Shown here: piece by piece, positions 1,362 to 25,350 of the stretch
Layout of the letters: each line of letters starts with the position of its first letter
How positions within the stretch are numbered: the stretch's first letter is position 1
Source of the DNA: Candidatus Peribacter sp.
GTDB taxonomy: Bacteria > Patescibacteriota > Gracilibacteria > Peribacterales > Peribacteraceae
Direction: 5' to 3'
Assembly: GCA_030647195.1 (NCBI GenBank)
Contig: JAUSKD010000036.1
Coordinates: 1-35,048, forward strand
Length of the DNA: 35,048 nucleotides
Notes under the pieces: model-generated
The model's input: the letters and a program-made list of their open reading frames with translations, nothing else
The model's database searches: none
Told to the model about the DNA's origin: nothing
Program-made: the position numbers and the translations under genes

Positions 1362-3425
1362 TTACATCACCACCTTCGCATCGAGGATCGTGAGATCTTT
1401 CGCCGTGAGCAGCACGGGGTTCAAATCGATTTCGCGGATCTGCGGACACTCCGCGACCATGCGCGACACGGTGGCAACAAGCTCCGCGAGGGCGTCGATA
1501 GCAAGCTGTGGAGTGCCGCGAAGTCCCAAGAGGAGCTTCCAGCTCTTGAGCTCCGTGAGCATGCGATAGGCCTGCTCGGACGAGACGGGCGCCACGCGGA
1601 AGGACGTATCTTTGAAAAGCTCGGTGTGGATGCCGCCCAGCCCGGCCATCACCAGATGACCTGCAGTTTCATCTTTGAGCGCCCCTACGATGAACTCGTT
1701 GCCCGGCGGCAGCGATTGCTGGATCAATATTCCGGCCACGCGCGCCCTGGGCGCCTTGGATTTCACGCTCTTCGTGATCCGCGCGAAGGCGGAACGCACC
1801 TGCGCATCGGTTTGAAGGTGGACGATCACACCGCCCACATCCATCTTGTGCAGAATGTCTTTGGAACTCACCTTCGCGACAACGGGATAGCCGATTTCCC
1901 GCGCGATCCTGACGGCGGCATCGGCCGTCCTGGCCACCCGGCCCTGCGGAAGAGGGATCTTGTACAGCGCCAGAAGCTCCCGGGTCCGCTCCTCGCTGAG
2001 AAGACCCTTCGTCTTCGCAAGGATACGCCCGGCCTGCGCCGCCCGCCGCGCGTTGACTGCGATCTTCTTCTGACTGTGCCTCTCCTGCCGGGGACTGCGT
2101 AAAGAAGCAAAAACGTGAATGGCGGACTCGGGGCAGGAATAATTGGGAATCCCATGCGCGTGCAGCACATCAATGGCCTCACGCACGCCTGCTCCGCCCA
2201 TGAAACAGGCAATCACAGGAAAGAGCGGATACAGCTCCGTGACGCGCACAATCGCCTTTGCAACCTCTGTGGCAGGCGTCATGATCTGCGGCGTCAGGAT
2301 CACCAGCGCTCCATCGATATTCTGATCCTGCGCTGCCGACCGGAGCGCGTGTTCGTAGCGGTCCGCCAGCGCATCGCCGAGGACATCAATAGGATTTTTC
2401 ACGCTCGCAGAGGGAGGCAGATACCGCTGCAGCTCGGCTGCATGCTCGGGCGAGAGCGCGGGAAGGACGAGCCCCTCTCGATCCACTGCATCCGTCGCGA
2501 GCACGCCGGGCCCGCCGGCATTCGTAATGATCGCAACGCGGTCGGAAAGCAGGGGCGGCTGTTGAGAGAGCGTGCGCAGCAGGTCGAGGAATTGGCGCGT
2601 GGATCGCGCACGAAAAATGCCTGCCTGTTCGCAGATCGCCTCGATCGCTGCATCCGACCCGGCAAGCGCGCCCGTGTGAGAAGATGCCGCGAGGCGGCCT
2701 TTCTCCGTCACGCCTCCCTTGAGAAGGATAATGGGTTTGGTGCGGCCGATGCGCTCGCTCAACGCAAGAAAGCGCCGACCGTCCACGATCCCTTCAAGGT
2801 ACAAACCGATCACTTTGGTCTCGTGATCCCGTTCACAGAGTTCCAATACATCGCACTCGTTCATCGACACTTTGTTGCCGAGACTCACGAAAAGGGAGAG
2901 CTTGAGTCCGATGGATGCAGAACGGTCGATGAACGCATCACCCAGTGCCCCGGACTGGCTGATGAGCGCTACCGATCCCGCCTGCGGCAGGCGATTGGCG
3001 AACGAAGCATTGAGACCGATTCCCGGACGCATGAATCCGAGGGAATTGGGACCGACCAGAGGGATCTGATAGCGATCCACAACGCGCTTGAGCGCTGTTT
3101 CGATGGCCTGGCCATCCACGCCGATCTCGCGGAACCCTGAGCTGATAACGACAAGGGATTTCACGCCTTTCCTGCCGCACTCCTCCGCCAACGCCGGCGC
3201 GGTCAAAGCGGGGGTGGCGATGACGGCCAGATCGATGGGCCCGGGAACTTCGCCTATGGAGGCATACACCTGTCTGCCCAGAATCGTGCCGCCCTTCGGA
3301 TTCACGGCGAAGACCCTGCCCTTGTACCCTTGCGTAAGCAGATTCCTCAAAATCAAATGCCCGACCTTGTGCTCATCGGCGGACGCGCCGATCACTGCAA
3401 TGGAATCGGGGCTGAAGAGTGACAT
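1362..3425 (-). CDS. Acetate--CoA ligase (ADP-forming), fused alpha-beta
   Basis: The protein interconverts acetyl-CoA + ADP + Pi and acetate + CoA + ATP, an energy-conserving step in fermenters. Domain order is CoA-binding Rossmann domain (SIAVIGAS near residue 10, VNPKGG), succinyl-CoA-ligase-like domains with SQSGALGDAF and the phospho-His segment SHTGALAGSD (His near residue 250), and a C-terminal ATP-grasp domain (from about residue 460; GYPVVAKVSS, HKMDVGGV). At about 687 residues it has the usual length of the single-chain form. The start at 3425 fits better than ATG 3434 because a -10 hexamer TACAAT overlaps the latter. The acyl specificity (acetate versus other acids) is not visible. 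Confidence 0.9.
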   Translation of the reverse strand: MSLFSPDSIAVIGASADEHKVGHLILRNLLTQGYKGRVFAVNPKGGTILGRQVYASIGEVPGPIDLAVIATPALTAPALAEECGRKGVKSLVVISSGFREIGVDGQAIETALKRVVDRYQIPLVGPNSLGFMRPGIGLNASFANRLPQAGSVALISQSGALGDAFIDRSASIGLKLSLFVSLGNKVSMNECDVLELCERDHETKVIGLYLEGIVDGRRFLALSERIGRTKPIILLKGGVTEKGRLAASSHTGALAGSDAAIEAICEQAGIFRARSTRQFLDLLRTLSQQPPLLSDRVAIITNAGGPGVLATDAVDREGLVLPALSPEHAAELQRYLPPSASVKNPIDVLGDALADRYEHALRSAAQDQNIDGALVILTPQIMTPATEVAKAIVRVTELYPLFPVIACFMGGAGVREAIDVLHAHGIPNYSCPESAIHVFASLRSPRQERHSQKKIAVNARRAAQAGRILAKTKGLLSEERTRELLALYKIPLPQGRVARTADAAVRIAREIGYPVVAKVSSKDILHKMDVGGVIVHLQTDAQVRSAFARITKSVKSKAPRARVAGILIQQSLPPGNEFIVGALKDETAGHLVMAGLGGIHTELFKDTSFRVAPVSSEQAYRMLTELKSWKLLLGLRGTPQLAIDALAELVATVSRMVAECPQIREIDLNPVLLTAKDLTILDAKVVM

Positions 3426-3432
3426 CACATGC

Positions 3433-3438
3433 ATTGTA
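3433..3438 (-). promoter_or_regulatory. -10 hexamer of acetate-CoA ligase gene
   Basis: TACAAT on the minus strand ends 7 bases before the ATG at 3425. A transcript starting at the normal distance would begin at or next to the start codon, so a leaderless mRNA is predicted. The -35 region is poorly conserved. Confidence 0.4.
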
Positions 3439-3469
3439 GGCGTCCCTTCCGAAGCATTCCATCATCCAA

Positions 3470-3693
3470 ACACACACAGAAACAGAACAGTACAAAAAAC
3501 AGGAAACGTGGAAGGGGCGCGACACGGGGGGTGAAGGGGAAGGCTCCGCACTGCATAAAAGCAGTGCACGCCGACGAGTCAGCTCCGAATCCTTGTAGGA
3601 GCTGACGAGAAGGCACGGGGCCGGGCGGAGAGGCGTTGGCGCGCCGGCGTTTGGGCTCCACCCTTTTCGCCGGAAAAGGGTGGAGAAAATACA
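3470..3693 (+). repeat. Structured intergenic repeat A, copy 1
   Basis: This ~220-bp element recurs at 11234-11453 in the same orientation. It starts with an A/C-rich, G-poor tract (ACACACAGAAACAGAACAG), followed by a conserved GC-rich core (GGGGCGCGACACGGGGGG), a variable hairpin present only here (GCACTGC/GCAGTGC), a 9-bp hairpin GTCAGCTCC/GGAGCTGAC with an 11-nt loop, a segment around GGCGTTGGCGCGCC, and a closing 13-bp perfect hairpin CTCCACCCTTTTC-GCCG-GAAAAGGGTGGAG. Stem sequences differ from copy 2 but stay paired. It lies between divergent genes (acetate-CoA ligase and SDR) and fills the whole spacer; no gene is seen in it. Confidence 0.85.
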
Positions 3694-11197: not shown

Positions 11198-11233
11198 ACA
11201 ATGGTCACTCACGGCAGAGCTGCGTTTACGCAA

Positions 11234-11453
11234 CACACAGAAACAAAACAGAAACACAAACCGGACAGACACAAACAAAACAACGCACGGGATGGGGCGC
11301 GACACGGGGGGTGAAGAGGAAGGCCCTGCTACAAAACGCCGACGAGGCGGATCCGAAGCCTTGGAGGATCCGACGAGGAGGCACAGGGCCGGGTGGAGCG
11401 GGCGTTGGCGCGCCAGCGTTTTGGCTCCACCTTTGTCGCGACAAAGGTGGAAA
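11234..11453 (+). repeat. Structured intergenic repeat A, copy 2
   Basis: This is the second copy of the element at 3470-3693, same orientation. The A/C-rich tract is longer here; the GGGGCGCGACACGGGGGG core is identical; the variable hairpin is replaced by a short unpaired insert; the middle stem is CGGATCC/GGATCCG and the terminal stem TCCACCTTTGT-CGCG-ACAAAGGTGGA. Four stem positions differ from copy 1 on both sides so that pairing is kept. The terminal hairpin ends directly after the stop codon of the minus-strand rRNA methyltransferase gene, so on that strand the element would be its 3' untranslated region. Confidence 0.85.
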
Positions 11454-22374: not shown

Positions 22375-22575
22375 ACAAGCCAAAAATAAACACCTACAAA
22401 ACCGGCTGGAAGGGAGGGACCGGAGGGGAGGGAAACCCGCCCTGTCGGCCATAGCCTTGGCGACGGCTGAAGGTTTCCCGCCCAGCTTGGGTTAGGAAGG
22501 TGACGGGGGTGTCGGGGGGCTGAGGGAACCGAACTTTCTTTCCTTAAGCCCCCTGACAAAAGAAAAAGATACATA
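22375..22575 (+). repeat. Structured intergenic repeat B, copy 1
   Basis: This ~200-bp element recurs at 25150-25350 in the same orientation. It has an A/C-rich lead (AAATAAACACCTACAAAACC), a G-run block with four G tracts (22408-22431), a stem GGGAAACC/GGTTTCCC whose loop here holds a 30-nt insert, a conserved single-stranded-looking part (CCCAGCTTGGGTTAGGAAGG), and a long stem from GTCGGGGGGCTGAGGGAA to TTCCTTAAGCCCCCTGAC. On the minus strand it begins about 40 bases behind the folA stop. It fills the spacer together with ~80 bases of unremarkable sequence up to the HEQEH gene. Confidence 0.85.
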
Positions 22576-25149: not shown

Positions 25150-25350
25150 ACAACTCATGAAAAACAAATACACAAACAAAACCGTCTGGAAGGGAGGGAC
25201 CGGAGGGGAGGGAAACCCGCAGGTTTCCCGCCCAGCTTGGGTTAGGAAGGTGACGGGGGTGTCGGGGGGCTGAGGGAACCGAACCCGCCCGAACGTACCG
25301 ACGTTCGGTACGGGCGTGGCAAGGTTCCTTAAGCCCCCTGACAAAAGAAA
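25150..25350 (+). repeat. Structured intergenic repeat B, copy 2
   Basis: Second copy of the element at 22375-22575. The GGGAAACC/GGTTTCCC stem here is closed by a tight loop without insert, while the long terminal stem is extended to about 20 bp (GTCGGGGGGCTGAGGGAACC with GGTTCCTTAAGCCCCCTGAC, one mismatch) and capped by an extra hairpin CGCCCGAACG ... CGTTCGG-type insert that copy 1 lacks. On the minus strand it starts about 16 bases after the nth stop codon. The spacer between nth and the TrmB-like gene contains nothing else. Confidence 0.85.

Follow-up and report, generated by a model that had tools for sequence, protein, structure and literature searches.

Dispersed folded elements of Peribacteria, probably non-autonomous and mobile, whose orientation tracks replication strand composition

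BOX and ERIC/IRU sequences are modular, foldable, dispersed intergenic repeats of 100–200 bp whose function is debated, and SINE-like elements share a 3′ tail with a partner. In the reduced genomes of candidate-phyla bacteria, big mobile-repeat families are unexpected; the family described here reaches 37 copies in a genome of 1.4 Mb. REPs are simple hairpins of 21–65 nt that have a foot of the GT[AG]G type and come with a RAYT gene, and RAYT (TnpA-REP) mobilizes REP/REPIN sequences. Non-autonomous IS200/IS605 derivatives, PATE-like, are what we take to be near kin in kind of the present element. For REP sequences, two published accounts connect the processing of single strands with the lagging strand (PMC6006769, PMC3116915), and the former describes IS200/IS605 ends that each carry a local hairpin of 20–25 nt.

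The Peribacteria element, which we call repeat A, resembles REP/REPIN sequences in being short, intergenic, multicopy, folded, non-autonomous and lineage-specific. However, its length of 150–220 nt and its layout, in which a tail hairpin stands apart from a nested multi-stem body, are not the size and shape of a REP (a single hairpin of 21–65 nt): the body measures ∼130–140 nt and holds three nested helices, to which the tail hairpin is added. The copy-rich genomes G003 and G016, moreover, have no Y1 transposase. With IS200/IS605 derivatives repeat A shares folded ends and an orientation bias with replication, and it may share the lack of obvious terminal inverted repeats or target duplication, but it has a hairpin at one end only, and its 5′ side pairs with the far side through the stem P1. 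As judged from their descriptions, BOX and ERIC/IRU differ from repeat A, which has a nested multi-stem body, coupling of P1 to the tail, a strand bias and no Rfam match. The presence of different bodies with the same tail module in one genome is SINE-like, whereas no partner reverse transcriptase bearing the tail was found in 12 scanned stretches around reverse transcriptase and Y1 genes. Repeat A works most like the single-strand elements of the REP/IS200 type and is not a member of them by the features tested.

Repeat A occurs twice in the window (the whole stretch of DNA analyzed, 35,048 nt of a Candidatus Peribacter genome), at positions 3470–3693 and 11234–11453, on the + strand in both cases. 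An initial annotation had proposed these two copies with a common GC-rich core and hairpins, and both are real (BLAST of copy 1 against copy 2, E=1.7e-36). The core common to them consists of P1, CGGGGGGTGAAGRGGAA, P2, P4, P1′ and the tail hairpin. Both units open with an A/C-rich leader, followed by P1, a G-rich core, P2, an optional P3 and the P4 arm; in the 3′ half, P1′ comes after a purine-rich junction and is joined to a perfect tail hairpin by a short linker. The general plan is (leader)-GGNGG-P1-G-rich core-optional P2/P3/P4-P1′-linker-tail hairpin over ∼150–220 bases, and directly 3′ of the tail hairpin lies A-rich sequence with no T run.

All features of copy 1 are on the + strand. 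Its unstructured A/C-rich leader (3470–3508) is of a kind that occurs in the window's genus and is absent in other genera, for example that of the 37-copy genome. The structured body (3510–3649) scored 125.6 bits with the covariance model R1, which was built from 38 copies. The 5′ strand of P1 (3515–3524), of class GGCG, pairs with the 3′ strand (3637–3646) and is followed by the unpaired, nearly invariant G-rich core CGGGGGGTGAAGGGGAA (3525–3541). P2 pairs 3542–3548 with 3616–3622, and the optional hairpin P3 (3548–3567) is, within the window, confined to copy 1, as the single-copy hairpin of the initial annotation. The P4 arm (3570–3614) has a GCC/GGC base (3570–3572/3612–3614), a double tandem G.A internal loop GACGAG/CGAGAA (3573–3578/3606–3611) in which the outer tandem G.A is partly broken, a stem (3579–3586/3598–3605) and a conserved loop (3587–3597). 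The purine-rich junction GGGCGGAGAGGCGT (3623–3636) precedes the 3′ strand of P1, and the CCACC-type tail hairpin (3656–3685) runs into A-rich sequence. Copy 2, likewise on the + strand, has its leader at 11232–11286, a structured body at 11290–11418 (R1, 122.1 bits), P1 at 11295–11304/11406–11415 around a core at 11305–11321, P2 at 11322–11328/11384–11390, the P4 arm at 11338–11382 with its loop at 11355–11365, and the tail hairpin at 11426–11451. The predicted fold of copy 1 was better than 200 of 200 shuffles (z −5.3), and that of copy 2 stood out less (z −2.9).

The compensatory changes reported between the window copies were found again: in the tail stem, C-G becomes T-A and T-A becomes G-C (CCACCCTTTTC/GAAAAGGGTGG versus CCACCTTTGTC/GACAAAGGTGG), and in P4, the middle stem, A-T becomes G-C and C-G becomes A-T while the P4 loop GAAKCCTTGKA is kept. 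The accompanying claim that changes always fall on both sides is right for these pairs and wrong for the outermost P4 pair, which reads T-A in copy 1 but G.A in copy 2; its bases do not pair in 21 of the 38 aligned copies. P2 also compensates (GGCTCCG/CGGGGCC versus GGCCCTG/CAGGGCC).

Across many copies, the view that structure is kept while sequence varies is strongly supported. Standard pairs filled 93.7% of stem cells in the 38-copy alignment, against 31–41% when the partners were slid; 27 of 30 pairs changed on both sides, and the covariation score of 0.412 (0.142 in shuffles) was reached by 0 of 500 shuffles. In a set of 110 copies, defined as model matches at E≤0.001 in 98 chosen loci and aligned by fitting to the structure, 95.3% of stem cells paired and 29 of 30 stem pairs changed on both sides, with a score of 0.395 versus 0.129 (again 0/500 shuffles) and 453 double-changed cells versus 117 in shuffles. 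Changes that break the stems, the outcome named in the initial annotation as refuting a selected fold, were not the pattern in these 110 copies. P1 is the most striking stem: its outer bases are GGCG... in some copies and CCGC... in others, and the partner 100–130 nt away follows. Two tandem G.A motifs can form in the internal loop GACGAG/CGAGGA; 36 of 38 copies have the outer GA/GA tandem and 29 of 38 the inner one, and in 5 of 38 the pair that closes the loop has gone from G-C to A-T. Covariation beyond shuffles is what a structured RNA shows and is expected of folded single-stranded DNA as well. Since orthologous copies can carry different P3/P4 modules, part of it may reflect swaps of whole stem modules between copies instead of single compensations. 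A G-quadruplex between P1 and P2, prompted by the G runs there, was set aside because conservation does not extend to the 3′ G run, where AAG, GTG and GTT occur.

P1 is linked to the 3′ tail hairpin, and the two make up an end module. In all 91 copies that could be classified, with 16 further copies falling outside the patterns used, P1 class and tail class went together: 52 copies joined GGCG to the CCACCTTT tail, 39 joined CCGC to the CTTTCTTT tail, and none was crossed. P2–P4 are dispensable as a block: short forms in three genomes (G024, G026 and G028) are without them and consist of P1, core and tail. In the same genomes as repeat A, both types of tail hairpin are also found behind structured bodies of other kinds, one a repeat with a long stem (G016) and another a short repeat resembling P1 (G003). 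The end module would thus seem to be exchangeable and to be recognized by a common machinery.

The element is restricted to Peribacteria and represents a new family. The 57 contigs of the window's own genome hold four copies, two of them beyond the window (BLAST), and BLAST with copy 1 gave matches in 19 of 58 genomes, all of the same family. The covariance model likewise recovered copies in the own genome and in relatives: at E≤0.01, R1 matched 15 of 33 genomes, comprising 15 of 20 within the family and none of the 13 from the other families in its class, and in a class-wide sample, under stricter filters and at E≤1e-8, it matched 10 of 145 genomes, again all of this family. Where present, the element had 1 to 37 copies (4 in the own genome, 13 in G003, 21 in G010 and 37 in G016 at E≤0.01, with some of the weaker matches possibly fragments), and 5 of 20 own-family genomes had none at this threshold. 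A scan of titled genomes for the exact core returned 79 loci, every one of them in a record titled Peribacteria, Peribacteraceae or Peregrinibacteria. Phage or plasmid cargo was rejected, as no copy was found in viral contigs (exact-pattern search) or in phage and plasmid records. At the gathering threshold, Rfam 15 matched nothing in the window except a tRNA; it gave no match for copy 1 at E≤1 and none for five other loci at E≤0.1. A literature search, with most subscription journals outside its reach, found nothing on this repeat in print. The family supplies more than 100 natural variants from which to work out what recognizes the fold.

The initial annotation had set a selected fold against a repeat, a contrast that misleads, for repeat A is a dispersed, polymorphic and lineage-amplified repeat as well as a conserved fold. 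The nearest relative of a copy lay in its own genome for 56 of 95 copies, compared with 9.4 (maximum 20) in 1000 label permutations. At one locus, upstream of an SDR-like gene, the element is present in three of the five species of the window's genus; of the remaining two, one has the leader with a different repeat and a tail relic, and one is empty. At a second, beside an rRNA methyltransferase-like gene (both gene names being putative labels from open frames), it is present in two of the five species, while one has the leader only and two are empty. These sister-species sites showed no clear target-site duplication, with flanks only ∼75–83% alike. A MITE of a DDE transposon would have such a duplication together with terminal inverted repeats; P1 is an inverted repeat but not a terminal one, as the tail lies outside it. 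Copies are intergenic, the called open frames lying at median distances of 59 and 37 bases, and with the element masked the four flanking-gene arrangements were even (18/15/15/12). Because its sites are polymorphic, its nearest copies are usually in the same genome and its flanking-gene arrangement is random, the element is neither a fixed RNA gene nor a cis-regulator. Casual inspection brought to light no autonomous copy, one that would carry an open frame between its ends. In one genome, G022, close inverted pairs of copies (C12:296120–296447, C10:159121–159449 and C7:10–304) are reminiscent of REPIN doublets.

Orientation of the element tracks replication strand composition independently of gene direction. 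After removal of duplicates and of loci under 6 kb, flanking DNA read in the element's direction was C-rich (negative skew) for 58 copies out of 70, with p=2.2e-8. Genes pointed either way with respect to the element at random (32 versus 38 loci), the bias was present in either kind of locus (26/32 and 32/38), and skew was alike in + and − genes (−0.031 and −0.032). In G003, a single contig, 13 of 13 copies agreed by replichore arm, including one whose local 20-kb skew is near zero with the wrong sign; 11 of the 13 lie in one arm, with no even spacing. In G016, 24 of 30 copies on three contigs agreed and the other 7 were unscored; in G032, a genome of weak skew, 5 of the 7 copies with a skew of at least 0.02 in size agreed, and 9 of 16 were unscored. 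The sets from these three genomes overlap with the 70 copies. A strand bias with the fork of the IS200/IS605 type was found in the overall set (58/70), in G016 (24/30) and in G003 (13/13). The leading strand is usually the G-rich one; our identification of the lagging template rests on this rule, with the replication origin assumed from skew. The origin in Peribacteria has likewise been assumed from skew in an earlier report (PMC4736985). In G003, an origin near 1.0–1.06 Mb would agree with where 16S rRNA, ribosomal protein L2 and the only tyrosine recombinase lie, and dnaA, at 0.617 Mb and ∼100 kb from the wrong skew flip, is of no help in placing it.

We next consider whether the fold acts as RNA or as DNA. 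Among 97 representatives, 34 G.T (1.3%) and 21 A.C were counted in 2619 stem cells, compared with 37 G.T in 896 cells (4.1%) of tRNA stems from the same genomes, where ARAGORN may bracket only standard pairs and only the G.T share is comparable. In the 28 pairs left after dropping two that were paired in <80% of copies, G.T exceeded A.C by 39:24, and the ratios after clustering were 34:21, 27:18 and 16:11. The low wobble share is unlike typical structured RNA, though it does not settle the matter. If one strand is the folded one, the tandem G.A motif and the small surplus of G.T suggest that it is the + strand. If the G-rich strand is the leading one, the lagging-strand template is the strand opposite the tandem G.A strand; since the stable tandem G.A strand is then not the lagging template, a simple IS200-like picture needs the other strand to be active. 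Because orientation follows replication, wobbles are rare and G.T:A.C is only 39:24, the evidence leans to a DNA-level, replication-linked mobile element. Accordingly, of the earlier proposal of a selected RNA or single-stranded DNA fold, the conserved fold stands, with DNA the likelier of the two forms.

No single family of mobilizers tracks the element, and no candidate survives. The Y1 transposase domain PF01797, present in 19 of 33 genomes searched, was not found in G003 (13 copies), G016 (37) or G017 (1), and RAYT/IS200 mobilization was rejected as a general answer on its absence from the first two. Reverse transcriptase (PF00078), which a retroelement such as a group II intron, a retron or a SINE-like element would call for, was not found in G003 or G010 (13 and 21 copies), and TnpB was above the cut-off in only 1 of 16 genomes (G018), so both were rejected as mobilizers. 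A resident TnpA (Y1) or TnpB as in IS200/IS605 does not regularly accompany the element (Y1, 0 in G003, G016 and G017; TnpB, 1/16), and each of Y1 transposase, TnpB and reverse transcriptase went undetected in copy-rich genomes. Genomes had from zero to two tyrosine recombinases whether they carried the element or not, and an extra integrase was rejected, as the copy-rich G003, G016, G020 and G130 have one each, like element-free genomes. The lone recombinase in these four genomes, which in G003 lies near the skew flip, suggests a single-recombinase Xer system. Reverse transcriptase genes stand beside large surface-type proteins at L223 in G016 and at L224 in the own genome (C47). The one in G016 adjoins proteins with repeated YWSATT...CVRP stretches, which suggest a diversity-generating retroelement. 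None of the 12 scanned stretches around reverse transcriptase and Y1 genes, that of G016 included, contained a tail-type hairpin.

We consider the sequences to be a family of non-autonomous mobile elements of Peribacteria whose single-stranded fold is recognized during replication, with a probability of roughly 55%. P1 and the tail would serve as the end module, recognized in folded single-stranded form by an enzyme supplied in trans, and copying or insertion would take place at the replication fork, always with the same strand sense. Such fork-coupled insertion would yield both the orientation bias and the intergenic scatter; a kept fold would keep a copy mobilizable, so that stems would vary by compensation or by exchange of stem modules. 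The scheme would join what was observed directly (fold conservation, dispersal, presence or absence at orthologous sites, P1-tail coupling and replication-tied orientation) through three postulated parts, namely mobility in trans, single-stranded recognition and the enzyme itself. That copy-rich genomes lack the single-strand transposases and reverse transcriptases already known points to an enzyme new to the job. A bolder version, which we put forward tentatively, is that several structured bodies share interchangeable ends (P1 and tail) and spread strand-specifically at forks by an undescribed single-strand recombination or RNA-templated machinery, in hosts without Y1 transposase, TnpB or reverse transcriptase; this would be a new class of mobile element.

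A serious rival to a mobile DNA element, if on balance an unlikely one, is a multicopy structured RNA transcribed from the + strand that acts in trans or is reverse-transcribed and reinserted, SINE-like, with a shared 3′ tail. Strongly conserved stems with unpaired invariant motifs, a double tandem G.A internal loop whose flanking pair covaries, the excess of G.T over A.C (39:24, slightly favoring the + strand) and a tail common to different body types all agree with an RNA, but wobbles stand at 1.3% versus 4.1% in tRNA stems (only the G.T share being comparable), neither G003 nor G010 has a reverse transcriptase, there is no Rfam match and no evident T-run terminator, and a head-on orientation would be odd for an expressed RNA. 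That orientation follows strand composition and not genes would also suit a replication-polar chromosomal signal, in which the folded strand acts at passing forks (in priming, in pausing or as a segregation mark) and its orientation is selected. We regard this as improbable: the element is missing in 5 of 20 own-family genomes, its sites are polymorphic within the genus, copy number runs from 1 to 37 and spacing is uneven (11 of 13 copies in one arm of G003). Least probable by far is a cis-regulatory RNA of adjacent genes (riboswitch, attenuator or terminator), which the intergenic position and the strong hairpin at the end might suggest; the four flanking-gene arrangements are about equally common, the hairpin leads into A-rich sequence, and orthologous genes in sister species lack the element. 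An intrinsic terminator was rejected on the A, not T, after the tail hairpin, and a riboswitch or leader on the random gene arrangement. The reading as non-autonomous mobile elements thus remains our preferred one.

Several further repeats were observed. The long-stem repeat CGGCGCCCTGCGAGCCGCC...GGCGGCGAGCATCAGCGCCG, with the tail class of repeat A, occurs in G016 and a relative (L149 ∼15664, L150 ∼3369 and L083 ∼3177–3460). Two near-identical copies in G003 (L138 ∼16379 and L139 ∼2388) consist of a leader, a P1-like hairpin GCGCCTATG/CATAGGCGC and the CTTTCTTT tail. Within the window, repeat B (22382–22565 and 25162–25350) is G-rich and structured, with 100% identity over 64 nt, an A/C-rich leader similar to that of repeat A and a TGACAAAAGAAA end; a B-like sequence lies inside the remains of a repeat A copy in a relative, G002. 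Palindromic inserts of ∼20–35 nt occupy hairpin loops and linkers of repeats A and B (window 22441–22472 and 25284–25320; L044, L046, L104, L112 and L116), and the loops look as if they were insertion hot spots for still smaller elements.
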